Origin: Clostridiales bacterium
Lineage (GTDB): Bacteria; Bacillota; Clostridia; Christensenellales; Pumilibacteraceae
Length of the DNA: 64,000 nucleotides
Assembly (NCBI GenBank): GCA_022508505.1
Contig: JAFLVC010000002.1
Location: 62,001-126,000, forward strand
Direction of reading: 5' to 3'
Part shown: positions 32,353-62,633 of the stretch, piece after piece
Layout of the letters: every line of letters begins with the position of its first letter
Numbering within the stretch: the stretch's first letter is position 1
Notes under the pieces: generated by a model
Told to the model about the DNA's origin: nothing
What the model saw: only the letters and a program-made list of their open reading frames with translations
Database searches by the model: none
Made by a program: the position numbers and the translations under genes

Positions 32353-32397
32353 TCAAAATAAATAGCGCCGTTAATGGGTGTTTGTGATAGGGAATAT

Positions 32398-32434
32398 AAT
32401 CGGTATTATACCGTGGCGGTATAATACCGATTTT
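32398..32434 (+). terminator. Terminator of marR-adh-aldh
   Basis: Perfect 15-bp stem with 5-nt loop GTGGC, then TTTTGTTTT. Confidence 0.9.
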
Positions 32435-32699
32435 GTTTTCGCCGTAAATTCGCTCTTGCAAGCAAGCGAATTTACTCCTCAAATCACAAACACCCAATGA
32501 AATTCGCCTAACGGCGAGTGAAATAACTGCGTTATGAAATATCCCTGACGGGATATGAAATATGCTACGCATATTGAAAGGCGAATTTTATTTCATGTTG
32601 CATTAGCAACATTTCATATTTAGCCAAAGGGCTAAATATTTCATTGTTTGCTTGCAAACAATTTCATTCGTCAAACTGGATTTATCCTTTCAAAACATA

Positions 32700-40575: not shown

Positions 40576-40722
40576 TAGACAACCGAAGAAAAAGATGTTA
40601 TAATATACGCAGTACGATTGCTTTGCAATCGTGGCGCTGTTCGCGCCTCGCGCTTAAAGCGCGACTGCGATATTGAATCACGGCGCAAAAATGCTTTTTC
40701 CCGGCAAGCATTTTTGCTTGTG
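40576..40722 (+). promoter_or_regulatory. sdaA promoter merged with the four-way-junction repeat, copy 1
   Basis: TAGACA (40576-40581), 17 nt, TATAAT (40599-40604). The repeat starts at the -10 box. 40602-40674 pairs completely: outer stem AATAT(A)CGCAGT / ACTGCGATATT, inner hairpins ACGATTGC/GCAATCGT, GGCGC/GCGCC and CGCGCT/AGCGCG with no unpaired junction bases except one T. A conserved tail GAATCACGGCGCAAAAATGC follows, whose end forms GCAAAAATGCTT / AAGCATTTTTGC (a 12-bp hairpin). Copy 2 is at 51992-52116 on the minus strand. Confidence 0.8.
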
Positions 40723-40747
40723 AAAGAATATACATGGAGAAACTACC

Positions 40748-41962
40748 ATGCAATCATTACGCGAATTGTACAGAATAGGCAGGGGACCGTCGAGCTCGCA
40801 CACCATGGGGCCGGAGCGCGCGTCGTATATCATGAAAGAACGTTTCCCGAAAGCGGATAAGTTTGTCGCGACGCTTTACGGCTCGCTTGCAATGACGGGC
40901 AAGGGGCACGGCACGGACGCCGTTATCGAGCAGGTGCTCGCGCCTACCGTTTGCGAGGTCGTGTTCGACACAGAGACGGAGTGCGACGTTCATCCCAACA
41001 CGATGGACATAGAGGCGTTCTCGGGCGGCAAAAGTCTCGGCAAGCACCGCTTTTACAGCGTGGGCGGCGGCGCGATCGAGATCGACGGGGAAAAGAGCGA
41101 AAAACCGAACACCGTCTATCCGCACCGCACCTTCAACGAGATAGCCGAGTACTGCAAGGCGAACAACCTCAGGCTGTACGAGTACGTCGGTCAGTGCGAG
41201 GGGCGGCAGATCTTCGAATACCTTTCCGCGGTGTGGGAGCGCATGAAGCAGACCATACACGAGGGGCTTATCGTGTCGGGCGTTTTGCCCGGCGTTCTCG
41301 GCACGCAGCGGCGCGCGCAGCAGCTGTTTAACCAACGCCACATCGACGAGTCGGCGCAGACCAAAGAAAACAGGCTCGTTTGCTCGTACGCCTTTGCGGT
41401 GGGCGAGCAGAACGCGTCGGGCGGGATTATCGTAACCGCTCCTACGTGCGGCGCGTGCGGCGTGGTGCCGTCCGTTCTAAAGTACATGCAGGAAACGCGC
41501 GGCTTTTCGGACGAGCATATCGTTCGCGCGCTCGCTACGGGCGGGCTCATAGGCAACCTCATAAAGCGCAACGCGTCGATAAGCGGCGCGGAGTGCGGCT
41601 GTCAGGCGGAGATCGGCTCGGCGTGCTCGATGGCGGCGGCGGCGCTTGCCGAGCTTTTCGAGATGGGGCTCGACCAGATAGAGTATGCCGCCGAGGTCGC
41701 CATGGAGCACCACTTGGGGCTGACCTGCGATCCTATTGCGGGGCTTGTTCAGATTCCGTGTATAGAGCGAAACGCGGTCGCCGCCATGCGCGCGATAAAC
41801 GCGCTGTCGCTTGCAAACTTTTTGGCGGGTTCGCGCAAAATAAGCTTTGATATCATCGTAAAAACCATGCTCAATACAGGCATGGATATCAAGAGCTGCT
41901 ACCGTGAAACGTCGGTCGGCGGGCTTGCCAAATACTACGAGATAGGCAAAAAACAACAGTAG
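40748..41962 (+). CDS. sdaA: L-serine ammonia-lyase, iron-sulphur type, single chain
   Basis: 404 residues with GGAG at proper spacing. Converts L-serine to pyruvate and ammonia using an oxygen-sensitive 4Fe-4S cluster. N-terminal beta domain starts with SLRELYRIGRGPSSSHTMGP; the alpha domain has APTCGACGVVPSVLKYMQET, SISGAECGCQAEIGSACSMA and IQIPCIERN-like QIPCIERNAVAA cysteine, the cluster ligands. Both halves are fused, unlike the two-subunit clostridial/Bacillus SdaAA-SdaAB. Its leader is the four-way-junction repeat. Confidence 0.94.
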   Translation: MQSLRELYRIGRGPSSSHTMGPERASYIMKERFPKADKFVATLYGSLAMTGKGHGTDAVIEQVLAPTVCEVVFDTETECDVHPNTMDIEAFSGGKSLGKHRFYSVGGGAIEIDGEKSEKPNTVYPHRTFNEIAEYCKANNLRLYEYVGQCEGRQIFEYLSAVWERMKQTIHEGLIVSGVLPGVLGTQRRAQQLFNQRHIDESAQTKENRLVCSYAFAVGEQNASGGIIVTAPTCGACGVVPSVLKYMQETRGFSDEHIVRALATGGLIGNLIKRNASISGAECGCQAEIGSACSMAAAALAELFEMGLDQIEYAAEVAMEHHLGLTCDPIAGLVQIPCIERNAVAAMRAINALSLANFLAGSRKISFDIIVKTMLNTGMDIKSCYRETSVGGLAKYYEIGKKQQ

Positions 41963-41976
41963 AAAAACGAGGACGG

Positions 41977-42855
41977 ATGAAAGAATACGACGTCATAATC
42001 ATAGGCGGAGGTCCTGCCGGTGCGTCCGCGGCGCTCTATGCCGCGCGCGGCGGGCTTTCGGTGTGCATAATCCATAACAGCGCGTCCGCGCTCGAAAAAG
42101 CGACCATTCAAAACTACTACGGCGCGGGCGATGTTTCGGGCGCGGAGCTCTATAAAACGGGGCTCAAGCAGGCATCTTCCGTCGGCGCGGAAGTGATTGA
42201 GGCGCAGGTGACTTTTGCTTCGCGCGGCGAGACGGACGGTTTCGAGGTCATGACGACAGCGGGCAAGTACAATTGTAAAAGGCTTGTCATAGCGACGGGC
42301 GCGAAGCGGCAGAGCCTCGACATTGAAGGCATAAAGGAATACGACGGCAAGGGCGTGAGCTACTGCGCCGTGTGCGACGCCTTCTTTTGCCGCAACAAGC
42401 GCGTCGCCGTCATAGGCGCGGGCGAGTACGCTAAGCACGAATACGACGAGCTTCTTAAGGTCGCTAAGGAAGTGCGACTACTTACAAACGGCGAGGCGGT
42501 ATCATTCGACGCGAGCGGCATGAACGTAGTGGACGGCAAACTTTCGCGCGTCGTGGGAAGCGACGGCAGAGTTTGCGCCGTGGAATTTGTCGGCGGGGAA
42601 ATATTAGAACTCGACGCGCTGTTCGTCGCGCTCGGCGTGATGGGAAGCGCGGCGATTGCTAAGAGCATGGGCGTAATGACAGACGAAAGCGGCGCGATTG
42701 CCGTCAATGAGTCGGGCATGACAAACGTAGACGGGCTGTATGCGGCGGGCGACTGCACGGCGGGTATAAAGCAGATTGCCCGCGCGGTAAACGACGGCAT
42801 GACCGTCGGGCTGAGTCTCATATCCGACATGAAGGGAAAAAGTGAAAAAAGGTAG
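41977..42855 (+). CDS. Thioredoxin-reductase-like FAD/NAD(P) oxidoreductase
   Basis: 292 residues. FAD loop IIGGGPAGASAALYAARGG, active-site CAVC (Cys130, Cys133) in GVSYCAVCDAFFCRNKRVAV, NAD(P) loop IGAGEYAKHE, and the terminal FAD motif GLYAAGDCTAGIKQIARAVN. Normally reduces thioredoxin; the CAVCDAFF motif (not CATCDG) and the GAGEYAKHEY NAD(P) loop suggest a paralogue with another partner, perhaps ferredoxin. About 20 residues shorter than E. coli TrxB. Ends overlapping the HAD gene. Confidence 0.9.
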   Translation: MKEYDVIIIGGGPAGASAALYAARGGLSVCIIHNSASALEKATIQNYYGAGDVSGAELYKTGLKQASSVGAEVIEAQVTFASRGETDGFEVMTTAGKYNCKRLVIATGAKRQSLDIEGIKEYDGKGVSYCAVCDAFFCRNKRVAVIGAGEYAKHEYDELLKVAKEVRLLTNGEAVSFDASGMNVVDGKLSRVVGSDGRVCAVEFVGGEILELDALFVALGVMGSAAIAKSMGVMTDESGAIAVNESGMTNVDGLYAAGDCTAGIKQIARAVNDGMTVGLSLISDMKGKSEKR

Positions 42856-43501
42856 CTCAATAAGCGGCGTAAAGGCCGCAATATTCGATCTCGACGGCAC
42901 GCTGTTTGACAGCACGCATTTGTGGGAGCAGATCGACGTCGACTTTTTGAAAAAGCGGGGGCTCGTTCCGACCGACGAGTACCGTCGCGCTCTCGGCGCG
43001 CTCGGCAACCGCGAGGGCGCGCATTTTACGGTCGATTACTATAAACTGAAGGATACGCCCGAAGAGCTCATGCGCGAGTGGGCGGGCATGGCGCTGTTCG
43101 CATACGAAAACAGCATCAAACTGTTCGACGGCGTCAAGGAATATCTGCTCGAAGTTAAGGGAAAGGGAATAGTGCTGATTGCGGTTACCAGCCTTGCAAA
43201 AGAGCTAGCAATCCCCGGGCTCAAAAGCAACGGCATACTGCACCTGTTCGACGATGTGATAACGGCGGACGAGACCAACCTGAGTAAGACCTCGCCGGAG
43301 ATTTACCTGCACGCCGCAACAATCGCGGGAGTGCCGCCTGCTTCCTGCGTGGCGTTCGACGACGTGGAGCGTGCGCTCCTTTCGGCGCGGGCGGCGGGCA
43401 TGACGACCGTTGGTATTCTGAACGAGGGAATACACAGCTGCGGCGATTGCGCCGACTACATAGTTACAAAGCTTTCCGAAGCGCCCAAGCTTTTGCCGTA
43501 G
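42842..43501 (+). CDS. HAD-superfamily hydrolase, phosphoglucomutase-like branch
   Basis: 219 residues from GTG 42842, overlapping the preceding gene by 14 nt. HAD motif I AAIFDLDGTLFDSTHLW, motif II IAVTSLAKE, motif III/IV with SKTSPEIYLHAATIAGVPPA and CVAFDDVERALLSARAAG. Helical cap between motifs I and II as in beta-phosphoglucomutase and phosphatase relatives. Acts on small phosphorylated metabolites; substrate not predictable. Coupled to the flavoprotein gene. Confidence 0.88.
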   Translation: MKKGSSISGVKAAIFDLDGTLFDSTHLWEQIDVDFLKKRGLVPTDEYRRALGALGNREGAHFTVDYYKLKDTPEELMREWAGMALFAYENSIKLFDGVKEYLLEVKGKGIVLIAVTSLAKELAIPGLKSNGILHLFDDVITADETNLSKTSPEIYLHAATIAGVPPASCVAFDDVERALLSARAAGMTTVGILNEGIHSCGDCADYIVTKLSEAPKLLP

Positions 43502-43523
43502 CGTTGCGGGTAGTCACCAAGTA

Positions 43524-44063
43524 TCAATCGGGTTCTATAATATCGTCTATAAATTCGTCTTTAACGGTATAGGAATGCAGATGCGCCATGCCGTTTTTGT
43601 CTATCATGTAGAACTTATTGCCGTCCTCCCACGTGCAGTCGGCTATGCGGTCGTAGCCGTCGAAAAATGCGGACAGGTCGGCTTTTGTTATGCCGCTTTT
43701 AAGCTGATCCGATAGCATGGCGTACGCCGAGGTCATGTCGCCGTTTTTTACGAGCGAAAACAGCCGCGCTATCGGCGAGGACGGCGGCGGCAGCGGTTGG
43801 GCGTTGCCGTACACTATTATGTAGCGCGGCGCGAGGGTGAGCAGAAAGTGGTCGGGCCCTAACCGCACGCCCGTCGCGAGCTCGCCGTTGAAGTTTTCGG
43901 CGCCGGTCAGCTTTACCGTGTATGGGAGCAGCGTGTGCTTTAGCGGCAGCGCCGTTATGTACACGACGTCGAACTCCGACATCGTCAGGCGGTCGGCGCG
44001 CTCGTGAAAGCAGCCGTTTATCATGTATACACATTCGAATTCGCTTTTTATATGCAGTTCCAT
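43524..44063 (-). CDS. Uncharacterised protein
   Basis: 179 residues, not recognised. No signal peptide or membrane span. N-terminal beta-rich part (MELHIKSEFECVYMINGCFH, VVYITALPLKHTLLPYTVKL), a proline patch QPLPPPSSP, and a helical second half with an FDGYDRIADCTW motif. Codon use matches neighbours. TATATT lies 6 nt before the ATG and no Shine-Dalgarno is visible, so translation may also be leaderless, but no good -35 box supports it. Confidence 0.7.
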   Translation of the reverse strand: MELHIKSEFECVYMINGCFHERADRLTMSEFDVVYITALPLKHTLLPYTVKLTGAENFNGELATGVRLGPDHFLLTLAPRYIIVYGNAQPLPPPSSPIARLFSLVKNGDMTSAYAMLSDQLKSGITKADLSAFFDGYDRIADCTWEDGNKFYMIDKNGMAHLHSYTVKDEFIDDIIEPD

Positions 44064-44165
44064 ACCGAAAATATATGTTTAAATTTTGCGTTCTATGTAT
44101 ATTTGTTTCTCTTTACGTCAATTATCGTGTGAGGCGATTAGACCGCCGATATAAGGAGACTGTAT

Positions 44166-44738
44166 ATGAACAATTCGAGCTGGACAATCGAACAGACCAA
44201 AAAGCTTTTCGCGCTTTGCGACAAGGCGAAAAAGCAGGGGACGAGTTTATCCTCGGCGTTTTCCGAAATGGCAAGGTTGACCGACCGCTCCGTCAATTCG
44301 GTGCGAAACTATTACTACGGTCAGGCAAAGACATTCGAGCTCGTGCCCGAGATTGCGGCGAAGCTGGGCATAAAGAGCACAAAGATAAAGCGCGACGCAT
44401 TCGTGCCGTTCGAGGCGGGCGAGATACGCGAGCTCATCGAAAAGGTGCTCGTCGGAAAGGCGAACGGCAAGTCAATCCGCGCCACCATTTTCGAAATGGC
44501 AAACGGCGACGCAAAGGTGGCGCTTAGGCTTCAGAACAAGTACCGTTCGGTGCTGCGCTCGCACCGCGACGAGGTCGAGGCCGTCATGAACGAGCTTTCA
44601 GAGCGCGGCGTTTCGTACGTCAACCCCTATTCTCGCGCCGATAAAAACGACAACTTCGTGCGGCTCACCGAGTACATCGCGTCCCTCGATTCGTCGAAGG
44701 TCGGAAGCTTTCTGTCGCTCATCGAAAAGCTGAAGTAG
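44166..44738 (+). CDS. Predicted DNA-binding protein with Myb/SANT-like domain
   Basis: 190 residues, AAGGAG ribosome site. N-terminal WTIEQTKKLFALCDKAKKQGTSLSSAFSEMA...RLTDRSVNSVRNYYYGQ has the tryptophan-helix-turn-helix pattern of Myb/SANT domains such as RsfA-type sporulation regulators. A second, weaker helical domain lies around residues 75-140 (EAGEIRELIEKVLVGKANGK ... NKYRSVLRSHRDEVE). Could regulate transcription or bind DNA structurally; no target is evident. The call rests on pattern only. Confidence 0.65.
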   Translation: MNNSSWTIEQTKKLFALCDKAKKQGTSLSSAFSEMARLTDRSVNSVRNYYYGQAKTFELVPEIAAKLGIKSTKIKRDAFVPFEAGEIRELIEKVLVGKANGKSIRATIFEMANGDAKVALRLQNKYRSVLRSHRDEVEAVMNELSERGVSYVNPYSRADKNDNFVRLTEYIASLDSSKVGSFLSLIEKLK

Positions 44739-44837
44739 CAATTTTTCTACTATGAGCGAGCTTAACGCAGCAAGAGCCCAAAACAGCACGCTATCGTGTG
44801 TGTTTTATTGGGGTTGGGAGAATGTACAATCAAACGC

Positions 44838-44866
44838 TTGATATTTTTTCTCCCCCGTAGTATAAT
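44838..44866 (+). promoter_or_regulatory. Promoter of nudix-asparaginase operon
   Basis: TTGATA (44838-44843), 17 nt, TATAAT (44861-44866), then GGGGAG before ATG 44899. Confidence 0.82.
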
Positions 44867-44898
44867 GATAAAAACATCTGCTATGGGGAGCTTGCATC

Positions 44899-45513
44899 AT
44901 GGGTTCGGCTATCGACAAAAACGGAATGACGGAGGCGCAGTTTTTGCGCGAGTACGACGTTACCCGTTATTTTCGTCCGTCCGTGACGACCGACGCCGTG
45001 CTCTGCCGCATATCGAGCGGCGGGGGCAGGGTGCTTCTAATCAAGCGCGGCGGACATCCTTACCTTGGGTGCTGGGCGTTCCCCGGCGGGTTTGTCGAAA
45101 AGGATGAGCCCTGCGAGGTCACCGCCTCCCGCGAGCTCGAGGAAGAGACGGGGATCAAAAATCTTGCGCTCCGTCAGCTCGTGACGGTTTCTACGCCCGG
45201 TCGCGATCCGCGCTGGCGCAACATCACCGTCGTGTACTATGCGCTTCTTGACGGCGACGTCGAGGCCGCTGCAGGCGACGATGCGGATAACGCCGAATGG
45301 TTTGACTTTTCTGTAGAGGCGAGCGGCGACTTTGTGAAGCTTGCGTTCTCGTCCGAAAAGGAGAGCTTTTGCGAGGAACTCAAAATCGTGCGCGACGCTT
45401 TCGGCAATATCGATTTAAACAACACCGTCGTCACGAAACGAGGCAAAATGGCGTTTGACCACGCCAAAATCGTCTGCTATCTGTATGAAGCGGCAAAGCG
45501 AGGCATAAGATGA
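44899..45513 (+). CDS. Nudix hydrolase
   Basis: 204 residues. Nudix box [20 protein letters not shown] followed by ETGI is complete (G-x5-E-x7-REL-x-EE-x-G-I). Preceded by [18 protein letters not shown] as in ADP-ribose and NrtR-like Nudix proteins. The C-terminal region ([20 protein letters not shown] ... [15 protein letters not shown]) resembles the short winged-helix-lacking tail of ADP-ribose pyrophosphatases. Likely clears ADP-ribose or a related nucleotide; overlaps the asparaginase gene by 4 nt. Confidence 0.9.
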
Positions 45514-46418
45514 AAATTGCACTTGTAGCAACGGGCGGCACTATAGGAAGCCGCAAGGACACTGACGGAATTATAAAGCTTTCGCGCGCCGCGACCGATC
45601 AGATAGCGTCTATCGTGGGCGCAGATTCTGTGTTCGATTCACTGTCTACGCACAGCGAGCGCATGAAGCTGAAGGACCTCAATACCTTCCGCAGGATAAT
45701 GCAGGACGCGCTCGCCACACACCCGGACGGGATTATCGTCACGCACGGCACCGACACACTCGCGTTTTCGTCGGCGTATCTCGCGTATGCGTTTTGCGAC
45801 ACGCGTATCCCCATCGTGATATGCTCGTCCGATCTGCCGCTCACCGAGCGCGACAGCAACGGCTTCGATATACTTCATTCCGCCAAGGTGTTTTTGCAAA
45901 ACAGAAAGGCGGGCGTGTTTGCAGTGTACAAAAACCCGGGCTACGCGCCGCAGGTTCACCACGGCGCAAGGCTGTTGCCGGCGCACCTGCACGAGCACTT
46001 TTATCACTCGCTCGGCGATTGGTCGTTTAACGACACGGGGCTCATGCACGGCATGGACTTTGACCTCTGCGGCGGCAAAGTTCTGCTCATAAACCCGTAC
46101 ATAGGTCTCGACTACTCGGTGTTCAACATCGACGGTTACGCGGCGATCGTTCAGAGCGGATACCACTCGGGCACGGTCAACTATGACGACTTTAACGCTT
46201 TTGCGAGCAAGTATCCCAATATCCCCATGTTCATGACGGCGGGGCGCAGAAAGTACGACGGCCCCGATTTTGTGCCTAACATCATTCAGTGCCACGGCAT
46301 AACGCAGACCGCCCTTTACATAAAGCTACTTATAGCGATTAAAAATACCGTAAAGGATTTGCCGTCGTTCGTCCTCAAAAACGCCTGCGGCGAAATCGTC
46401 GATCCCGATAAGTATTAA
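45510..46418 (+). CDS. ansA: L-asparaginase (type I-like)
   Basis: 302 residues. Hydrolyses asparagine to aspartate and ammonia in the cytoplasm (no signal peptide). First catalytic Thr in [11 protein letters not shown], second in [20 protein letters not shown]. Shorter than E. coli AnsA (338) and with an atypical histidine-rich middle [20 protein letters not shown]. Translation coupled to the Nudix gene by ATGA. A terminator-like hairpin lies at 46491-46513. Confidence 0.87.
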
Positions 46419-46490
46419 ACCGTATTTTAAAAACCTTCGCTTTATCGCAGTTCACAAATGGAATTCGGGTGAAACGAAACTAATAATCGG

Positions 46491-46520
46491 GCGTGGCAAA
46501 AGCCGCGCCTTTTCCGTGCT
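46491..46520 (+). repeat. 30-bp direct repeat, left copy (terminator hairpin)
   Basis: GCGTGGCAAAAGCCGCGCCT continuing TTTCCGTGCT. The first part folds as GGCGTGGC-AAAA-GCCGCGCC-TTTT, an intrinsic terminator. An identical 30-bp copy is at 48064-48093; the two bracket the AT-rich pnuC block. Confidence 0.85.
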
Positions 46521-46557
46521 ATCTTGTGAAGATAAACTTTAGTATTTATAGCTTAGG

Positions 46558-46617
46558 TTGCATTTCCTCTTTTGATATGCTATAATATTTGTGCGATAAA
46601 CAGTAATTTGGCGGAGA
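46558..46617 (+). promoter_or_regulatory. Orphan promoter copied from the EFR1 gene type
   Basis: TTGCAT (46558-46563), 17 nt, TATAAT (46581-46586), then GCGATAAACAGTAATTT and CGGAGAA, matching 11282-11337 over about 55 bp. At 11345 an ATG follows the CGGAGAA site; here none does, so this looks like a promoter and ribosome site left after loss of its gene. Confidence 0.7.
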
Positions 46618-46621
46618 ACAC

Positions 46622-46752
46622 TTGCCTTAAATTGTTTGTTGTGGTAAAATACATACATAACTGCCACCGGGTAGAGAAATGCTTGAGCATTCATTACGTA
46701 TCGTTAGGTCTTTGAAGATGCGTATTGAGTGCTTGTTTTTTTGGAGAAGATT
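46622..46752 (+). promoter_or_regulatory. pnuC promoter and structured leader
   Basis: TTGCCT (46622-46627), 17 nt, TAAAAT (46645-46650). The leader of about 95 nt holds CTGCCACCGGGTAG, hairpin AATGC-TTGA-GCATT (46678-46691) and stem TACGTATC / GATGCGTA (46695-46724, one G-T pair) then a T7 tract before GGAG. The layout suits a ligand-sensing leader such as an NAD-type riboswitch, but I cannot match it to a known motif. Confidence 0.5.
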
Positions 46753-47469
46753 ATGAAATTTAAATCCATAAAAGGCTATTTTTCAAAGGTTGAAATTGCT
46801 CTATGGGTTATTTCGGTATCGCTGATCATAATTTCATTTTCTGTATTCGACAGAAGAAACTATATAATTCTTGCCGCTTCGCTTATCGGGGCAACGTCGC
46901 TTATATTTAATGCAAAGGGCAATCCAATCGGACAAGTTTTAATTATCATATTCGGCATTTTATATGGCATTGTATCTTACACGTTTGCCTACTACGGCGA
47001 GATGATAACCTATCTCGGTATGACAGCGCCTATGGCAATCGTTGCGCTCATAGCTTGGCTCAAAAATCCGTATAACGGCAACAAAGCGGAAGTGAAAGTC
47101 AACCGATTAATGTGGAAAGAGATTATTCTCATGGCGGTATTGACCGTCGCCGTAACGATTGCGTTCTATTTCATTTTATGGTATTTTAATACTGCAAACC
47201 TTTTGCCGAGTACGCTCTCTGTTACGACAAGTTTTATCGCCGCATATCTCACGTTCAGACGAAGTCCGTATTTTGCGATTGTCTATGCCGCAAACGATAT
47301 TGTTCTCATCGTGTTATGGATATTGGCTACATTGACGGATATTTCCTATTTGTCGGTAACAATCTGTTTCGCTGTCTTTTTGGTTAATGATATCTATAGC
47401 TTTATAAATTGGCTGAAAATGCGGAAGCGACAACACAATCGGGAGGAAGCGCAATGTTCAGAGAAATGA
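46753..47469 (+). CDS. pnuC: PnuC-family nicotinamide riboside/vitamin transporter
   Basis: 238 residues from ATG 46753 (GGAG 6 nt upstream); the earlier ATG lies in the leader. Seven or so membrane spans with the PnuC pattern: ATSLIFNAKGNPIGQVLIII, FAYYGEMITYLGMTAPMAIV, AYLTFRRSPYFAIVYAANDI and a final span before INWLKMRKRQ. Facilitated uptake of nicotinamide riboside trapped by phosphorylation; riboflavin and thiamine relatives exist, so the vitamin is not certain. AT-rich codon use. Overlaps the next gene by 16 nt. Confidence 0.85.
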   Translation: MKFKSIKGYFSKVEIALWVISVSLIIISFSVFDRRNYIILAASLIGATSLIFNAKGNPIGQVLIIIFGILYGIVSYTFAYYGEMITYLGMTAPMAIVALIAWLKNPYNGNKAEVKVNRLMWKEIILMAVLTVAVTIAFYFILWYFNTANLLPSTLSVTTSFIAAYLTFRRSPYFAIVYAANDIVLIVLWILATLTDISYLSVTICFAVFLVNDIYSFINWLKMRKRQHNREEAQCSEK

Positions 47470-47948
47470 GAAGAAAAAATCAACGGCTTACCGAAACGGA
47501 ATGCGTTGAAATTCTGCATAGGAATACTGCCGGAGTGCTAGCCGTTCTGGGCGATGAGGGCTATCCATATGCCGTACCGATGAGTTACGTTTACGATGGG
47601 GAAGCTCTGTATTTTCACTGCGCGAAAAGCGGTCATAAACTTGACGCTATCAAGTCCTGCGACAAAGTATCTTTTTGCGTGATAGACCAAGACGAAGTCG
47701 TCCCGCAGAAATATACTACGCACTTTCGCAGTGTAGTTCTTTTTGGACGGGCGAGCATATTAAACAACGATGAAGAAGTGCTTTCCGCAATAGGGAAGTT
47801 AGCAATAAAATATCATCCGACCGATAGCAAGCGGAATCGTGATATAGCTATCAAAAAAGAATACTCTGCTATGTGTATCATAAAAATAGACATTGCCCAT
47901 ATGACGGGAAAAGAGTCCATTGAGCTTGTAAAAGCAAAGTATCGATAG
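47454..47948 (+). CDS. PPOX-family FMN-binding protein (NimA-like)
   Basis: 164 residues from ATG 47454 with GGGAGGAAG upstream. Split-barrel flavin-binding fold: MRRKNQRLTETECVEILHRN, GVLAVLGDEGYPYAVPMSYV, LYFHCAKSGHKLDAIKSCDK, VSFCVIDQDEVVPQKYTTHF. Typical of the 5-nitroimidazole reductase NimA and pyridoxamine-phosphate-oxidase-like proteins of anaerobes. Likely an FMN-dependent reductase. Translationally coupled to pnuC, perhaps because both serve nicotinamide/flavin metabolism. Confidence 0.87.
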   Translation: MFREMRRKNQRLTETECVEILHRNTAGVLAVLGDEGYPYAVPMSYVYDGEALYFHCAKSGHKLDAIKSCDKVSFCVIDQDEVVPQKYTTHFRSVVLFGRASILNNDEEVLSAIGKLAIKYHPTDSKRNRDIAIKKEYSAMCIIKIDIAHMTGKESIELVKAKYR

Positions 47949-48063
47949 CTCAATCGGCGTAGAGGCGAGTGCCGAGACGCTCTTGAAATATACACAAGAA
48001 AATTCTGTCAAGCAATAAAATCAAGCGACGCATGACATTAAAAATAGCTTTATTAAAGTTCTG

Positions 48064-48093
48064 GCGTGGCAAAAGCCGCGCCTTTTCCGTGCT
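48064..48093 (+). repeat. 30-bp direct repeat, right copy (terminator hairpin)
   Basis: Identical to 46491-46520; forms the terminator of the pnuC-PPOX pair. The flanking bases differ (GG before one, CTG before the other). Confidence 0.85.
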
Positions 48094-48182
48094 TTACATG
48101 TGTTGACGAAGAAAGCTTTTTTACGGAAACAACGGCAAGCGCAAGGGCGGCGGCAAGCATTATGCGCCTTTTACTTAAAAAG

Positions 48183-48989
48183 TCATGCGGCTTCCTCGCT
48201 CGGCAAGACGGTTATGATAAGCTTCTCCGACGGCTTGGAATTTTCGGTTATTCCTGCGCCGAGTTCTACTTTGTACAACAAAATCTCTTCGTTTTTACAC
48301 GGCTTTTTGGCTATAATCAAGTATACCGGATCGTATTCGATAAATTTGACTGTACGAACAATATCAAAGACGTCACTGTTGTACTTTATCCCTACGCAGT
48401 CTGCGTGTATTGCGAATTGTCTGCCGTTATAACCGTGCGGGCTTGGCACAACACGCAAAGCATATTCTCCCACGGTAAGCGTATACGTTTCCCAATGCAG
48501 TTCGTTCGCAGATATTACTACGTCCCGTGTGCTCGAAATATAATTCCACTTGTCGGGCGAAGTAGTCCAGCAGTCCTCGTCGCGGTCATAATTTGCGCCG
48601 CTATACAACGAACCCCTGACGCCGTCTATCAACGGATATTTCAATTCATCTTTCGCGGCCGATTTAAGTCCCAAAACCACCGCCAAAACTATGACTGCCG
48701 TAAACGCGACTGCGCACACGGTGGAGATTGTTATAAGCAGCTTGCGCGAGCGCGATATTATTTTGTTCTTTTGTACTATAACCTTTTCGGTGGGCGCGTC
48801 AGAATACAAGTCTTCCTTGCTCACGTCGAAGTACTCGCAAAGCAGTCGTAGCGATTCGTTGCTCGGTAATCCCAAACCGTTTTCCCATTTGGCGACGGCG
48901 CTGCGGCTTACGTAAATGCTTTCGGCAAGCTCGGACTGCGACACGCCTTTTTCGCCGCGTAGCTTTTTCAGCTTTTCGTTAAACTGCAT
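48183..48989 (-). CDS. XRE-family regulator with membrane anchor and sensor tail
   Basis: 268 residues from ATG 48989 (AAAGGAGGCC upstream). N-terminal HTH (KLKKLRGEKGVSQSELAESI, YVSRSAVAKWENGLGLPS), then a linker, one membrane span (LLITISTVCAVAFTAVIVLA) and an extracytoplasmic domain of about 145 residues (WTTSPDKWNYISSTRDVVIS). A one-component membrane-bound regulator sensing an outside or membrane signal. No adjacent minus-strand partner within 200 bp; target unknown. Confidence 0.85.
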   Translation of the reverse strand: MQFNEKLKKLRGEKGVSQSELAESIYVSRSAVAKWENGLGLPSNESLRLLCEYFDVSKEDLYSDAPTEKVIVQKNKIISRSRKLLITISTVCAVAFTAVIVLAVVLGLKSAAKDELKYPLIDGVRGSLYSGANYDRDEDCWTTSPDKWNYISSTRDVVISANELHWETYTLTVGEYALRVVPSPHGYNGRQFAIHADCVGIKYNSDVFDIVRTVKFIEYDPVYLIIAKKPCKNEEILLYKVELGAGITENSKPSEKLIITVLPSEEAA

Positions 48990-49231
48990 AACGGCCTCCT
49001 TTTTCGGTTGCGTATATTGTATCACATCCGCATGAAAAAAGTAAATACCGCACGCCGTTACTTTACCCGTTACGGCTGTTACTTTTGAATTTGCTTTGAA
49101 TTATGAACTGTGACTTTTTGTATGCAGTAAAAAACTCTCGGTTGTTCGAGAGCTTTTTGTCATAGCGAAGGTATCACTCATGTAGTGCATGCTTCTATAT
49201 TGGAAGCGCGAATATTTGCGAGGCTTTTGTA

Positions 49232-49645
49232 TTATGCGCGCATGGCTACGAGCTTGGCTTTTAATGCGGCGTACGCCTCGTCGGGATCGTCGATATTTAT
49301 GACCGTCTTTTCCATGGGGCAGATGTCGGTTCCGTCGCGGTTTATGATGCGGTCAACGAGCGTTTCGCACTCGTAAGCTATGCCGTGGCGGATTAGCACT
49401 TCTTCTGCGAGGCGGGAGAGCGTCTTTGCGTACACCGCCTTTATGCCGCATTTGACGAAAAGCAGCGCGGCAGCCTTTCCGACAACTATATCGGCAACCG
49501 AGTAGCATTTTAGGTCGACGCCGTCCAAGATAAACCCCATCATCGGAGCTATGCCGTGCTTATCGCTGTAAAGACATTCGCCGTCGCGGCACAGGCAGAT
49601 CGTGTGTCCGTCGAGGTTTTGCTTTGCTTTTTCAATATCAGTCAT
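49232..49645 (-). CDS. DUF1893 domain protein
   Basis: 137 residues. Matches DUF1893: TICLCRDGECLYSDKHGIAP, CYSVADIVVGKAAALLFVKC, VLIRHGIAYECETLVDRIIN and NRDGTDICPMEKTV. The family is uncharacterised; conserved cysteines and the VGKAAA motif suggest a small-molecule or cofactor role. Its ATG overlaps the stop of the S-component gene by 8 nt, a frequent pairing that hints at a link to the imported substrate. Confidence 0.85.
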   Translation of the reverse strand: MTDIEKAKQNLDGHTICLCRDGECLYSDKHGIAPMMGFILDGVDLKCYSVADIVVGKAAALLFVKCGIKAVYAKTLSRLAEEVLIRHGIAYECETLVDRIINRDGTDICPMEKTVINIDDPDEAYAALKAKLVAMRA

Positions 49646-50225
49646 TTTGGTTTTTGTCCCTGTCCAAAAGCAGTTTCAGTCCCATTACGATAAAAGGAAC
49701 GAGAGCCGCTTGCAATACCATTCCCAACAGTCCCGTCTGAATCTGCGCCCAGATGACTGCGGGGGTGAAAGGCGTCACCGCTTGAAATATGAGTACGAGA
49801 AGCATGAACGCAGTTCTTCCCGCTATTTGCGCGAGCAGCACCGCGGGGAAGGCGAGCCAGCCGTTTTGAGCTATCTTGTTTGCAAAAAGTCCGGACACCG
49901 CGCCGAACACGGCAAGCTCCGCCGCCATGAACGGAAGCCGCGCCGCCATCGGCATGGGGTTGCCTGCGGCAAGGGTGATGAGAAAGCTTACGACGGGCGA
50001 AGCGACGCCTATCGAAATCCCCCACAGCGAGCCGAGAAGGCATCCGCCGAGAAGCACGGGAAGGTACATGGGAAGCCACTGCACGCCGCCCGGTGCGCCG
50101 AGCGCCGCGTGTACAATCTGCGGCAAAGCGACCGCCAAGGCGACCAGCCCGAGCGAGACGAGACTTTTTACGGTGAGCTTGACTTTTAACGAGCAATTCT
50201 TTTTGATTAAAACGTTTTCAAGCAT
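49638..50225 (-). CDS. ECF transporter S-component
   Basis: 195 residues, TAAAGGAG site. Six membrane spans; MLENVLIKKNCSLKVKLTVK, then QWLPMYLPVLLGGCLLGSLW, GVASPVVSFLITLAAGNPMP and PFMAAELAVFGAVSGLFANK, the Pfam ECF-S pattern with the P-x-x-R/L-P-like surface that slides on EcfT. No EcfA/T genes next to it, so it should use the general module at 3839-6510. Substrate unknown; the DUF1893 partner may be a clue. Confidence 0.87.
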   Translation of the reverse strand: MLENVLIKKNCSLKVKLTVKSLVSLGLVALAVALPQIVHAALGAPGGVQWLPMYLPVLLGGCLLGSLWGISIGVASPVVSFLITLAAGNPMPMAARLPFMAAELAVFGAVSGLFANKIAQNGWLAFPAVLLAQIAGRTAFMLLVLIFQAVTPFTPAVIWAQIQTGLLGMVLQAALVPFIVMGLKLLLDRDKNQND

Positions 50226-50283
50226 GTTTATTCTCCTTTAAAATAATTATCGGGTTATGCGGTTTTTTTGTCCGACGATACCG

Positions 50284-51393
50284 TTACTTTTCGAATTCCT
50301 TTGCGACGTCTTCCAAGAGCTGTCTTATGGGCAGGTGCTGCGGGCACGACTTTTCGCACTTGCCGCACTTTATGCAGTCGGACGCTTTTCCGCCCGTTTT
50401 GGTGTGTATATCGGTGTAGTAGTAGTCGGCGTTCCAATCGTGGTGGATGTTTTTTGTGTTCATGCAGGCGAAAAGGTCGGGAATCTTTATCTGCTTCGGA
50501 CAGCCTTCCGTGCAGTAGCGGCAGGCGGTGCAGGGGATGAGGTTCATGCCCTTGAACACCGCGCACACATTTTGAACGGCTATCATTTCTCTTTCCGAAA
50601 GCGGCGTAAAGTCCTTCATGTACGAAATGTTGTCCGTCATCTGCGCCATGTTGCTCATGCCGGAGAGCACCATGAACATTCCCTCAAAGCCCGCCGCAAA
50701 GCGAATGGCGTAGCTCGCGGCGCTGTTATCCCCGAGCGCGTCGAAAAACTTTTTTGCGTCGTCGGGAAGGTTTACGAGCCTGCCGCCCCTGACCGGCTCC
50801 ATGACGATAATCGGCTTATTATGCTTGCGGCATACGTCGTAGCACTTTTTGGACTGTACCGCCGGATCGTCGTAGTCCACGTAGTTGAACTGTATTTGAA
50901 CGACTTCGACCTGCGGATACTCGGTGAGGATTCGGTCGAGTACGTCCGCCGTGTCGTGGAAGGATAAGCCGAAGTGCTTGATTTTGCCTTCCGCCTTTAG
51001 CTCTAACGCCGTCTCGTAGGCGCGGCACTTTTTGAAGTGCTCGAATACTTCCTTGCTCTGCGCGTGCATCAAATAGAAGTCGAAATAGTCGACGCCTAAG
51101 ATTTTGAGCTGTTTTTCGAAGAACGGGCGAATGTCGGACTGCGTGTTGAAATACGGCGCGGTCAGCTTGTTCGTCAGTATGTATTTGTCGCGCGGATAGC
51201 GAGCTACGAGACAGTCTGCAAGCGCCGTTTCGCTCAGCCCGTCGTGGTAGCCGTGCGCCGTGTCGAAATAGTTGAAGCCGTTTTCCATAAATGCGTCTAT
51301 CATTCTGTTGAACTCGGCGTAGTCGATTTTGTTCCCATTCATGGGTAGTCTCATGCAGCCGAAGCCTAATTTTTTATGTACGTTTTCAAACAT
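50284..51393 (-). CDS. Aldo/keto reductase with two C-terminal 4Fe-4S clusters
   Basis: 369 residues. AKR barrel (LGFGCMRLPMNG, FNYFDTAHGYHDGLSETALA with catalytic Tyr, YILTNKL with Lys, YLMHAQS with His) fused to a ferredoxin-like tail: CTACRYCTEGCPKQI and CIKCGKCEKSCP. Fe-S aldo/keto reductases of anaerobes probably take electrons from ferredoxin instead of NADPH. CAAGGAG site. Lies 20 nt behind the flavodoxin gene, a likely electron partner. Confidence 0.9.
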   Translation of the reverse strand: MFENVHKKLGFGCMRLPMNGNKIDYAEFNRMIDAFMENGFNYFDTAHGYHDGLSETALADCLVARYPRDKYILTNKLTAPYFNTQSDIRPFFEKQLKILGVDYFDFYLMHAQSKEVFEHFKKCRAYETALELKAEGKIKHFGLSFHDTADVLDRILTEYPQVEVVQIQFNYVDYDDPAVQSKKCYDVCRKHNKPIIVMEPVRGGRLVNLPDDAKKFFDALGDNSAASYAIRFAAGFEGMFMVLSGMSNMAQMTDNISYMKDFTPLSEREMIAVQNVCAVFKGMNLIPCTACRYCTEGCPKQIKIPDLFACMNTKNIHHDWNADYYYTDIHTKTGGKASDCIKCGKCEKSCPQHLPIRQLLEDVAKEFEK

Positions 51394-51413
51394 AATACTC
51401 TCCTTGGATTGCT

Positions 51414-51932
51414 TTAAGCTTCAACGCTTTTCTTTGCCCACTCGGCGACTTTCTTTTCGGACTGCGCCGCTTTCGCGCCGTGAATGGAAAGGCCGCGAAG
51501 CAGTGCGGCGCCCGGGCATATCATTTTCAGGTCGCGCTCGCTCAGGGAAAGCCCGCTACCTTCGTTGGTGCAAAACGGCGCGATTCTCTTGCCGACGAGG
51601 TTTAGCTTTTCCAATAGCGTGAACATTGCCATAGGCATCGTTCCCCACCAATTGGGGTAGCCGACGAATATGACGTCATAGCCGTCCAAGCTTTCGGGAT
51701 ACGCCTTGACTGCGGGGCGGGCGTTTGCGTTAAGCTCCTTTTGCGCCACGTCGATACATTCGTTATAGTCCTCGGGGTAGGGTTCTGCCGTCTCCACCTC
51801 GAACAGGTCGCCGCCGACCGCATTTTGAATGAACTCGGCGACAATTTCCGTATTACCCTTAGCAAGATTTTTGATGCTACCGTTGACGTAGTTCTGTCCT
51901 TTTCTCGAGTAGTACACGATTAGGTTTGCCAT
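51414..51932 (-). CDS. Flavodoxin
   Basis: 172 residues, AAGGAG site. FMN loop YYSRKGQNYVNGSI, isoalloxazine contacts GYPNWWGTMPMAMFTLLEKL and the end motif TNEGSGLSLSERDLK; flavodoxin_4 class. Small soluble electron carrier. Leader of the gene is the second copy of the four-way-junction repeat. First gene of a flavodoxin-AKR operon. Confidence 0.92.
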   Translation of the reverse strand: MANLIVYYSRKGQNYVNGSIKNLAKGNTEIVAEFIQNAVGGDLFEVETAEPYPEDYNECIDVAQKELNANARPAVKAYPESLDGYDVIFVGYPNWWGTMPMAMFTLLEKLNLVGKRIAPFCTNEGSGLSLSERDLKMICPGAALLRGLSIHGAKAAQSEKKVAEWAKKSVEA

Positions 51933-51991
51933 GGGTCAAGCTCCTTTTTGTATTGGAATTGCTTTAAGTCGCACCTTTCCGTACATTATAT

Positions 51992-52138
51992 CACAAGCAA
52001 AATATGCTTGCTTGCAATAGCATTTTTGCGCCGTGATTCAATATCGCAGTCGCGTGAATTACGCGAGGCGCGTCAGCGCCACGATTGCAACGCAATCGTT
52101 ACTGCGTATATTATAACACAAAGCCGCAATAATTTCAA
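51992..52138 (-). promoter_or_regulatory. Flavodoxin promoter merged with the four-way-junction repeat, copy 2
   Basis: Minus strand TTGAAA (52138-52133), 17 nt, TATAAT (52115-52110). The junction (52112-52040) has the same outer stem and hairpins ACGATTGC/GCAATCGT, GGCGC/GCGCC and CGCGT/ACGCG; the last pair of the third hairpin is C-G in copy 1 and T-A here, a compensatory change, while loops differ freely. The tail GAATCACGGCGCAAAAATGC is identical to copy 1. Confidence 0.8.
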
Positions 52139-52190: not shown

Positions 52191-55100
52191 TTATGCGGCT
52201 TGCGCGGCGTCGTAGGCGTCCTTCCAAATCCTCGTCCAAGGATTTTCGTTGCCGCCCGTTATGGGAAGTTCGCCTTTGAGAAGGTCTTCGAGCGATGTGT
52301 ACGTGACGTCCTTGCCGTCGAACACGAACGAGTTGTTCGACACGTACCAGTGGTCGTTGTAAATCGTCGCGTTGCCGAGCCCGCTCGAAACCATGTTGTA
52401 CGGGTCGCTCGTGTCGGCATTTCTGAGCGTCGCATTGAGCGACAGTACGACGACACTCGCAAACTTGGTATCTATCGAAGCGCCGGATATGTAGTTGTCT
52501 AGCAGATTGTCGTCGCCGTCGTTTGCGCCGGTGAGCGAGACGTTCAAGTCATTGAGACTGTTATTGCCCGTCAGCTCTTTTAAGCCTATCGTTATGCTGT
52601 GCTTGCCGTTATCGTAGGTGTAGCCCTTGAATACTGTCGCAATCGTAGGCGTAGCCACCGCTTTGCTTTCAGCCGTTATTGCGCTCGATATTGCCGATTG
52701 CAGGTTGATGCCGAATACGGTGAATTTTGTGCTCAGCGGTACGAGATAGAACAAGCATTCGTTCAAGAACTTTTCTATGTCGTTTGAAATCATGTACAGG
52801 AATTCGTCGACCGTGTATTGTGCGTACACGCGATTGCAGTTGAAGAACTTCTTCTTTGTGGGGAAGAGCCAGCTGCCGTACTTGATTTCTTCCTCGTTCC
52901 AGCTCTTTACGCCGTCTACGTACAGCATGTTGTCGTAGAAATACAGCCTTGTCGAGAGATCGCCGACGACAGTTGCGCTGAGCGCCGTGCAGTCTTTGAA
53001 ATTGAGCTCGACATACGCCGCCGTCTTGTATTCGGGCTCGTCGGGATCTTGCGCCTGTTCCGCGGTAAGCAAGCCCATTGCGATTCGCTCTTGCTTGCTG
53101 TACAGCTTGACCTTGACGTCGTAGTGTATGTCGACGGTTACCAAGTCGAGCCCGATTACGGATATATTGAGCGTAATAGTGTCGCTCGTGTCGACGCCGC
53201 CGATTCTAAACTCCATAAGGTTTGCCGTATTGAGAAGGTCAAACAACAAATGCTTGATATTTGAAAGGTCGGAGTAGGAGGTCTTGTTCTTTTCGTCGGT
53301 GACGTTGATGAGCGCGTTCATATCTGGCGCAATCACTACCTCTCCGCCCGAGGTGAAGTCGACGTCTATGTATTCGATTACAGCGGTGTTGACGTCGAGG
53401 TTTTTAATAGCCACGCCGTTTACGACGCCCTTGCCGCTCTCGTTTACGCCCTGCGACACCTTGAGCTCCGCCGTGCCTTTGCCCTTGGTCGTCAGGCTGT
53501 TGCTTACCGTCGCGCCAAGCTCGCCGCCGTCTGCCGTCAGCGAAATGCCGTTTACTATGTCGGAGAACTCGGGAACTTCTATTTCGGTGTACTCGTCGGG
53601 AAGTTCGGGCGCTTCCGGCGTCGCTTCCTCGTCCGATTTGAACCTGCCTATGGCGTTTGCGATATGCTCTTTGATTTGGTCGGTCGAGCCGAGCAGAGCG
53701 TTTATCTTTTCCTCGCGCGTGCCCGTCATGCCGTCGGGAGCGAGCACGAGATCCCATGCGCTCTTGACGTCGTCGAGTGCGTCGCCGAGGTTGATGAGAA
53801 GCGCTACGATATTTTCTATCGTGTCGCGTATGCCGTCCATGCCGACAATGTCGAGCGAGTCGAACACGCCGGAGTCTATGTCGACGCGGTACTCGGCGGG
53901 GATTATCAGATTGAGCGTTTCGTCATTTACGCCGAGAATCTTGAACACCGACGCGAGTATCTGCATGACCGAGCCGTAGTCGATCGATATGTTTTCGCCG
54001 TAGCCCGTCTTGGATTCCTTGTAGCTGAGGAAAGCGACCTTGTCGTACAGCGTGTCGCCGTAGTAGTAGCCCGAGAGAATATAGAAGGCGAGGGTGAGCG
54101 AGCCGCCGTTTTCGGACACGCCGTCGAGCTTGAGGTGCGCTTCGAGGTTGATGTCGTAGCCGCCCTTTTCGGTCTTGACGAGCTTGCCCTTGAGAACGGG
54201 GAGTGCCGCGCCGCCTTCGGTGACGCCGCCGACCGTAACCGTCTTGCCCGCGACCACGCTCTCGGTGCCGTCGTCGTTTTGGACCGTCTTGTCGTTTTCC
54301 TTGTACGAGAAGGCGAATGTGTCGATGCTGAACGTTATGTTGCCGTCCGCGTCGTGCGTGGTGAAGGTGTGAACGAGGTTGTTGACAAGCTCGATGTAGT
54401 CGATTATCGAAACGTACGCGTCGCTGTTTTCGGGAAGCGCTATGCCGAGCGTCTTTTCGCTTAAGTTCGGCGCGCCGATTGCGGCGTGTACGCTCATTCC
54501 CGCAATGCTCGTATCAATCGTTATTTCGGAGAGCGCAGACTTATCAAGTGTGAGCACGGGCGAGATGTCAATCACAAAGCCCGCGAGCGCAAAGCCGATT
54601 GTCGGAGTATTGCTGCGCATATAGAGGTTGAACATGTCGGCGAGCGTCTTTATCGCGCTCGGAGCGCCCTCGTAGTCGTGGAGCTTGCCGAATAGGAGTG
54701 CCGCCGCTTCGTCTATGCTCTTCGCATTGCCAAGCGACTTGAAGCGGTCTATAATGAGCCCGATGTCGTTGAACGCGCTTATTTCGTCGCTGTCCGAAAT
54801 TCCGAGAAGCACCGCGAGCTCGTCGCTGAGGTAGCGGGGCAGGTATTCGTCGAGAATGGCGTGTATGCGCGCAAGGTCGTTCGGTTCGCCCGAAACGGTG
54901 AACTTAAGCTTCATCTGCCCGAGCTTGATATACAGCACGCCGTTTAAGTATGTGATTTCTATCTTTTCGTCGAACAGCGTGAGGCTTACGCGAACCGCCA
55001 TAGTGTCGAAGTCAATCTCGGCTTTGCCGTCGATCGTCAGCTGCTTCATGTCGGCGGTTCTTACGAGCGCACCGAGGTTGATCGTCAAAGACTTCGCCGT

Positions 55101-61697: not shown

Positions 61698-62633
61698 TTA
61701 ATGCAAGTCGATGTAGGCGGCTTCTTCCTCGGTGAGTTCTACGTCGAACGCATCGAGGTTTTGCTTCATGCGCGAAATCGACGTCGAGGTCATGATTGCA
61801 AAAGGTTTTATGTTATGCTTTAGCGTCCATGCGAGCGCGAGCTGAGCTACGGTGCAGCCCTTCTTTTCGGCTATCTCTCTTGCGCGTGTCAATCTTTCGA
61901 AGTTTTCTTTTGCCGTGAATGCGCGGCGCGGCCAGCCGTGCATGTCGCTCTTTTTGTGCACCCGTCCCGAAAAGAACCCGCACCCGAGCGTCGAATAGGG
62001 CATGACGGCGACGTCGCCGGTTTTGTACCACTCGCGGGCTTCTTCGTGCTTCGCGCCCGCGACGCTCACCGCGCCGTTGCCGAAGGGATCGCCCTTCATG
62101 TCGGCGAGCCCGAAGTACGGGCTCGAAACGGTGAACGGCACGAGGTTGTGCTTGTAGGCGTACTCGTTAGCCTCTTCTATGCGGCGGTGCGTCCAATTTG
62201 AGCCGCCGATCGCGCCCACCTTGCCGTCTGCAATGAGCGAGTTGAGAATTTCTACGAAAGTGCCCGCCTGTATGCGCGGGTTGTCGCGGTGCAGAAGGTA
62301 GATGTCGATATAGTCGGTCTTGAGCTCGCGGCAGGAGATAGAAAAGTCCTTTTTTATCGCGCGTTCGTTAAGGCGCGGAATGATGAGCGCGGGGTGTCCG
62401 CCCTTTGTTAAGATGACGAGCTTGTCGCGGTTGCCGCGCGACGCCATATAATTTCCGAGCGTCCGTTCCGCTTTTGCGTAAACGCGCGCCGTGTCGAATG
62501 CCGTAAAGCCGAGCCCGATAAGCTCGTCCAAAAATTCGCCGACGTCGTCGCCGCGCCTAAAGGCGGGGTTGGACGTGCCGAACACGAGCCGAGCGACCGG
62601 CTTATTTACGTTTTTAATTTGGGCGTATTCCAT
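61698..62633 (-). CDS. Aldo/keto reductase
   Basis: 311 residues. AKR barrel without Fe-S tail: GFTAFDTARVYAKAERTLGN (catalytic Asp and Tyr), VILTKGG (Lys), IDIYLLHRDNPRI (His), IGGSNWTHRRIEEAN. NAD(P)H-dependent reduction of an aldehyde or keto sugar. The start has no Shine-Dalgarno; TTGATT-17-TACACT ends 9 nt before the ATG. Divergent from the release-factor-like gene, with which it shares a 247-bp gap. Confidence 0.88.
   Translation of the reverse strand: MEYAQIKNVNKPVARLVFGTSNPAFRRGDDVGEFLDELIGLGFTAFDTARVYAKAERTLGNYMASRGNRDKLVILTKGGHPALIIPRLNERAIKKDFSISCRELKTDYIDIYLLHRDNPRIQAGTFVEILNSLIADGKVGAIGGSNWTHRRIEEANEYAYKHNLVPFTVSSPYFGLADMKGDPFGNGAVSVAGAKHEEAREWYKTGDVAVMPYSTLGCGFFSGRVHKKSDMHGWPRRAFTAKENFERLTRAREIAEKKGCTVAQLALAWTLKHNIKPFAIMTSTSISRMKQNLDAFDVELTEEEAAYIDLH

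Follow-up and report, generated by a model that had tools for sequence, protein, structure and literature searches.

The 64,000-nucleotide window analyzed here (positions 62,001 to 126,000 of contig JAFLVC010000002.1, from the Clostridiales assembly GCA_022508505.1, family Pumilibacteraceae) contains two copies of a short structured block, one upstream of an L-serine dehydratase gene and the other upstream of a flavodoxin gene. These blocks are very probably copies of a non-autonomous mobile DNA element of about 130 bp, whose insertion site is the extended −10 box (TGnTATAAT) in promoters of the host. How does a repeat come to lie so exactly within the promoters of genes that have nothing in common? 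The answer put forward here is that the box itself is the target. The element is called family I, and families II, III and IV are other branches of a wider superfamily, all names coined in the present analysis. The source genome (G000) has a size of 1.89 Mb in 25 contigs and is 96.84% complete.

When the first block (copy 1) was used as a BLAST query, nine strong places including the query itself were found in the source genome, all with E-values of 2.9e-26 or better, so the block is a repeat and not a chance resemblance. One of these nine copies has a partial unit at its side, and two copies (the C9 tandem) lie head to tail with one TATAAT in common. All nine are in the sense orientation, upstream of an open reading frame (ORF). 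According to Pfam, the downstream genes encode serine dehydratase, flavodoxin, ABC/FtsX, YitT, a leucine-rich repeat (LRR) protein, NrdR and YicC, which are unrelated and share no common pathway. Of the eight downstream proteins, one small membrane protein has no Pfam match; it reads as a putative subunit of an energy-coupling factor (ECF) transporter, with a CoaX-like frame after it, and the nrdR gene appears to be followed by putative FeoAB-like frames.

Seventeen family I copies were scored for promoter position, nine from the source genome and eight from relatives (L023-L025, L040, L041, L051, L184, and L185). Exactly 17 bp before TATAAT, the match to TTGACA averages 3.53 of 6 positions, and it reaches at least four in 8/17 copies. 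At spacings of 14–16 and 18–20 bp the means are 0.94–2.00, as against a background of 1.53 over 2400 upstream positions, 3.25% of which reach at least four. An 18th copy, a short form in genome G004 that was initially omitted from the scoring and added afterwards, has TTAACA at spacing 17. In the tandem, no −35-like hexamer precedes the second copy. Altogether, 17 of the 18 family I copies lie sense and 5′ of a gene, counting L041, whose downstream frame is short (107 codons), and L185, where the open frame on its strand starts near the element's end.

What these promoters look like without the element can be read in related genomes. Four downstream proteins were joined into one query and searched against 20 genomes of the genus, and the upstream DNA of the matches fetched was then read. 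For yicC, 18 loci of other genomes were read; the element is missing from every one of them, and each has a −35/−10 pair, with TTGAAA or TTGATA about 17 bp before TATAAT or TACAAT; in the source genome the order is TTGATA, 17 bp, TATAAT, the element, TATAAT, the insert thus lying precisely at the −10 box. The element is likewise absent before sdaA at all six loci read, five of which have a promoter-like pair, and before the ECF-like gene at all 15. Among nine flavodoxin loci, one (in G007) has a motif match, which is a family IV copy further upstream. Since relatives keep the promoter without the element, family I must be an insertion into pre-existing promoters.

The same box can also be occupied by different subfamilies. 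A putative peptidase-like gene (72% identity over 348 amino acids) has the promoter CGCTTAACA..TGTTATAAT and matching upstream DNA in genomes G004 and G019; its −10 box carries the short family I copy, in sense, in G004 and a reversed family III copy in G019. Similarly, an ABC-type gene (90% over 289 amino acids, one of the two frames being cut by the end of the locus) is preceded by family I in G002 but by family III in the source genome. Occupation of one box by two subfamilies in opposite directions identifies the box as the target.

On this basis a mechanism can be outlined. The asymmetric target motif would be part of what is recognized, in which case the orientation of the element and its distance from the gene would be by-products of the target. 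The host −35 box and the left TATAAT would keep driving the gene, whose mRNA would now carry a structured 5′ untranslated region (UTR), and the fold may act as single-stranded or cruciform DNA recognized by a recombinase. As read from the sequences, the asymmetric ends, the motif on both sides, its sharing in the tandem and the orientation set by it are all in keeping with a mobile element that is specific for its target. The left TATAAT may be the old host box, a duplicate of it or a box carried in with the element.

The features of the window are collected in Table 1. An earlier note, made from the sequence alone, had described the two blocks, and much of its description holds: both are found where it placed them, ahead of the two genes that it named and that Pfam confirms, and each has its TATAAT at the proper distance from a −35-like hexamer. 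The CGCAGT..ACTGCG core is 62 nt long in both copies, in agreement with the equal lengths claimed, and five or six outer A/T pairs bring it to the fully paired core of some 73 nt. The C-G to T-A change noticed in one stem is also real and recurs in the family (CG in 10 and UA in 4 of 14 aligned copies). The full unit of about 130 bp takes in the 3′ hairpin, beyond the block first delimited.

Table 1. Family I copies, related element and adjoining genes, numbered from the first nucleotide of the window.
Feature	Position	Strand	Basis or remark
−35-like hexamer TAGACA before copy 1	40576..40581	+	17 bp before TATAAT
Left-end TATAAT of copy 1 (−10 box, target of insertion)	40599..40604	+	sequence; left TATAAT invariant in 14/14 aligned copies
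Four-way-junction core, copy 1 (CGCAGT..ACTGCG)	40608..40669	+	folds
Conserved 3′ hairpin module, copy 1 (TTGAATCAC..GTGA)	40673..40723	+	fold and alignment
L-serine dehydratase gene downstream of copy 1	40748..41962	+	Pfam SDH_alpha/SDH_beta
−35-like hexamer TTGAAA before copy 2	52133..52138	-	17 bp before TATAAT
TATAAT, left end of copy 2	52110..52115	-	sequence
Four-way-junction core, copy 2	52045..52106	-	DNA fold z −5.15
Conserved 3′ hairpin module, copy 2	51991..52041	-	fold and alignment
Second TATAAT, right end of copy 2	51985..51990	-	sequence
Flavodoxin gene downstream of copy 2	51414..51932	-	Pfam Flavodoxin_4
Third element, another subfamily with the same 3′ hairpin loop (TCTTGCAAGCAA)	32376..32496	+	compensated stem

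The third element of the window lies inside a GGGTGTTTGTGAT..ATCACAAACACCC palindrome. Directly adjoining it is a facing pair of matches to Gut-1 RNA (RF01706; window positions 32495-32669), which has no overlap with the two blocks; nothing beyond this adjacency was seen to relate the element to Gut-1. Elsewhere in the window, the minus strand of 52191-59402 holds an ORF of 2403 residues, repetitive by eye and possibly encoding a large exported protein. A further observation concerns the ECF-like gene, which in relatives (L164-L178, and L018) has a native leader of its own, conserved and reading by eye CGGCTGTGGGCTAT..AGTCCAACAGAAGGAG. In scans of four sources, nothing in Rfam matched it at E-values up to 0.1; this leader is a separate candidate cis-regulatory RNA.

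The 3′ hairpin links family I to the rest of the superfamily, since it recurs in relatives with different 5′ parts and at different sites. It is subterminal, with a stem, a 2-nt bulge and then TTG-CAAG-CAA. The pattern YNTTGCAAGCAAGC gives 188 matches in 47 of the 74 genomes of the bacterial family, as against 10 for a reversed-pattern control, with 10 matches in the source genome and 25 in G008, in neither of which the control finds any; some matches are chance hits inside genes (e.g., L064, L102, L122, and L131) and not elements. Over 57 distinct flank pairs, 275 of 399 stem cells are Watson-Crick pairs (shuffled mean 188, maximum 218 in 1000 shuffles). At least six of the seven stem pairs form in 34 of the 57. 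Their stems swap A-T for T-A and G-C for A-T, whereas the loop stays the same, TTGCAAGCAA; its constancy is partly due to selection because it belonged to the search pattern; the remaining 23 include chance matches and degenerate copies. At the order level, 150 of 396 genomes match the motif, family members included, by eye mostly with one or two hits, which does not establish enrichment outside the family. Three scans of IMG/VR for viral carriers yielded 0, 0 and 1 contig; the one match, L189, starts at TGTGATATAAT and by eye precedes a start codon.

Each subfamily has its own sites. Family III also lies at −10 boxes, with its hairpin on the opposite strand relative to family I. Its set of 17 loci (21 hairpins) was picked by the hairpin followed by a TATTATA-like end, so that the presence of TATAAT in 21/21 is partly a matter of selection. 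Independently of this choice, 11 of the 17 non-internal copies match the −35 hexamer in four or more positions at spacing 17. With tandem units counted apart, all 19 hairpins that have a called left gene face its start, and for two of the 21 no such gene was called. Loci L118 (G001:C8) and L117 (G001:C6) are tandem family III units with a period of about 130 bp and TATAAT at each junction. Family II (AATAAATTAGG..CTCGAATAA) is found at AATAA sites; that it lies right after stop codons as a rule was rejected, as only 5 of 22 copies with a recognized left end have a TAA closing a coding-like frame. Finally, a family IV hairpin lies in the T-loop of a tRNA-Leu(UAA)-like gene (L031/L216, G061:C25:22248-22360). 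This gene is the only match to the tRNA-Leu(UAA) pattern in the draft genome G061 and is near a contig end, which calls for caution about the assembly; once about 70 nt were taken out in silico, ARAGORN called the tRNA. If this tRNA is functional, the insert would need to be removed from the RNA. Two other loci, L204 (G025:C1) and L207 (G028:C35), hold tandem tRNA-Leu(UAA)-like genes with extra hairpin sequence in the D-arm region, not called by ARAGORN, and may be tRNA-derived repeats.

The family I fold consists of a closing stem with three arms, followed by the long 3′ hairpin. Folded as DNA, copy 2 reaches −37 kcal/mol (z −5.15), and copy 1 folded as RNA reaches −58.2 kcal/mol (z −5.77); in neither case was any of 200 shuffles as good. 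For structure and covariation, 14 family I copies were aligned: standard pairs occupy 96.5% of pair cells and both sides have changed in 7 of 49 pairs (shuffled mean 2.5, with one of 500 shuffles reaching 7), while slid versions of the pairing have zero to two such pairs. One of the two proposals of the earlier note was a novel class of riboswitch or structured 5′ UTR, which would control the downstream gene in response to a shared signal. The RNA stability, the compensated pairs and the sense, upstream position of nearly all copies speak for such a class. It is nevertheless very improbable. The downstream genes are unrelated, neither block matches an Rfam family at gathering score, in sister species the promoter stands before orthologous genes without the element, and in family III the conserved hairpin is found on the other strand, in some cases at the very promoter that carries family I elsewhere; copy L184, between convergent genes, points the same way. 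On gene context, empty sites and the flipped orientation of the sister subfamily, this reading was rejected. The note's other proposal, a mobile repeat supplying a −10 box and a cruciform, comes close to the data, except that the host promoter had its −10 box first. It had also held that copies in both orientations relative to genes would indicate a plain DNA repeat; the hairpin is indeed flipped in the sister subfamily, whereas in family I itself all but one of the 18 copies are sense and 5′ of a gene.

Is the fold then at work as DNA? Transcription is expected to start about 7 nt after the −10 box, and of the seven doubly changed pairs two come directly after TATAAT, before the expected start (A-U to G-C in L004, U-A to C-G in L006). 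Such changes hint at a role of the fold in DNA, and folding probably serves mobility in that form, although the evidence is weak.

The repeat might also be mobile and yet be kept at promoters mainly because it is useful, with a stable structure at the 5′ end that protects the mRNA or insulates the promoter. The left TATAAT, exact in every aligned copy, suits this idea; the right-end one is exact in only 6/14 aligned copies and in 5/9 copies of the source genome (copy 1 has AAGAAT there). The left box is therefore the probable start signal for transcription, which would give an RNA with a closed stem at its very beginning. Such retention is unlikely all the same, as target bias alone explains position and orientation, and tandem and truncated copies suggest tolerance.

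Several observations weigh against a mobile element aimed at the −10 box. Family I taken alone is strongly sense and 5′, which leaves room for a selected role, and L184, flanked by convergent genes, has a terminator-like palindrome next to it, a position that also argues against a strict leader role. The strict promoter test was passed by only 2 of 15 ECF-like and 3 of 9 flavodoxin regions of relatives, weaker −35/−10 pairs being readable before the ECF-like gene. Further pair types show no excess in the alignment (20 vs. 20.8 in shuffles), and each pre-start compensated pair occurs in one sequence only and is broken by another copy. As for enzymes, Y1_Tnp is found in four of the 20 genus genomes and not in the source genome, TnpB in none of the 20, and reverse transcriptase in three, not including the source genome but including the copy-rich G008. 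None of the three was thus found as a present-day mobilizer in the source genome.

What, then, would move the element? Y1 HUH transposases of other strains, or one since lost from this genome, might do so if the element were a non-autonomous relative of the IS200/IS605 insertion sequences or of repetitive extragenic palindromes (REPs). This is possible, if doubtful. The subterminal hairpin has a two-base bulge, sequence 5′ of the hairpin inside the element is complementary to the 3′ junction, and the target motif is kept at the left end, as described for IS608 (PMC5934647). By eye, the basal stem joins sequence from inside the element to the junction, the pairing being TTGAATCAC:GTGATATAA in family I and TTGAAATAC:GTATTATAA in family III. 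Against this, no Y1_Tnp was detected in G008 either, for all its 25 motif copies, and the 3-kb loci read around four Y1 genes (L060-L063) contain no TTGCAAGCAA. Y1_Tnp and TnpB being absent from the source genome and the hairpin from the Y1 loci, the element was not filed as IS200/IS605-derived.

If a site-specific (tyrosine) recombinase integrated the element like a cassette, crossing over within TATAAT, this would account for single copies flanked by TATAAT and for tandem copies sharing one core. We hold it to be distinctly unlikely: by eye there is no integrase-like cluster among the 25 listed, recombinase families not having been searched by profile. These clusters come from a comparison of 1247 stop-to-stop frames for a protein common to the loci; of those listed, one consists of Y1 proteins fetched on purpose (L060, L061, and L063), and the rest by eye are host genes or frames through repeats. 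One may also imagine an element that, folded as a single strand, locates the −10 box through a basal-stem DNA guide base-paired to its complement TATAA, and inserts without destroying the promoter. Sister lineages would have redirected the same hairpin by changes of guide to the opposite −10 strand, to AATAA or to tRNA T-loops, and the enzyme would not be a known Y1 transposase. As a whole this scheme is speculative, and quite unlikely to be right.

Small mobile structured repeats are already known, and the −10-box element can be set beside several of them. In the Bacillus cereus group, the bcr1-type repeats (group A) are 100–400 bp long, with TTTAT motif repetitions and a proposed mobility resembling site-specific recombination (PMC6542083). 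Family I is similar in its many copies within one bacterial group and in the short motif repeated at the element (L009 is flanked by TATAAT, and the two C9 tandem copies have one in common); it differs in that its target is the host −10 box, entered in one orientation in promoters, where the bcr motif is TTTAT, and the two are likened by description only. REPs and the CGTC- and GTAG-tagged palindromes are short hairpins, some bulged, with a tetranucleotide tag at the foot, REPs measuring 20–40 bp and lying mostly downstream of genes (PMC3733652, PMC8266576). The CGTC repeats, too, lack a dedicated transposase (PMC3733652). The superfamily has a bulged hairpin as well (cf. PMC8266576), with CGTC or CGGC at the stem foot in 33 of 59 distinct hairpins, and unlike REPs adds a multi-branched 5′ part, family I moreover lying in the −10 box. 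Its stems begin with GC in most copies, and not with the AT pairs described for CGTC repeats (PMC3733652). Hairpin ends, guide-like complementarity (read by eye) and a target retained on the left recall IS200/IS605 ends such as those of IS608 (PMC5934647), from which family I is set apart by a source genome without Y1 transposase and by TATAAT on both sides. Like miniature inverted-repeat transposable elements (MITEs), the element is small, non-coding, dispersed, flanked by a repeated target and matched by empty sites in relatives; unlike them, it shows no clear terminal inverted repeats by eye in the aligned copies of families I-III.

No report of this repeat, nor of a mobile repeat aimed at the −10 box, was found in the open-licence literature searched. 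Other fixed sites, tRNA genes among them, are known to take up elements without harm. With the −10 box as its safe harbor, an element would provide many unrelated genes with a structured leader and yet leave them active; inserting into promoters in this way, it could be mistaken for a class of regulatory RNA. Because one promoter can be taken by two subfamilies in opposite directions, the choice of target is testable, and the hairpin shared throughout the superfamily offers a handle on the enzyme that mobilizes it.

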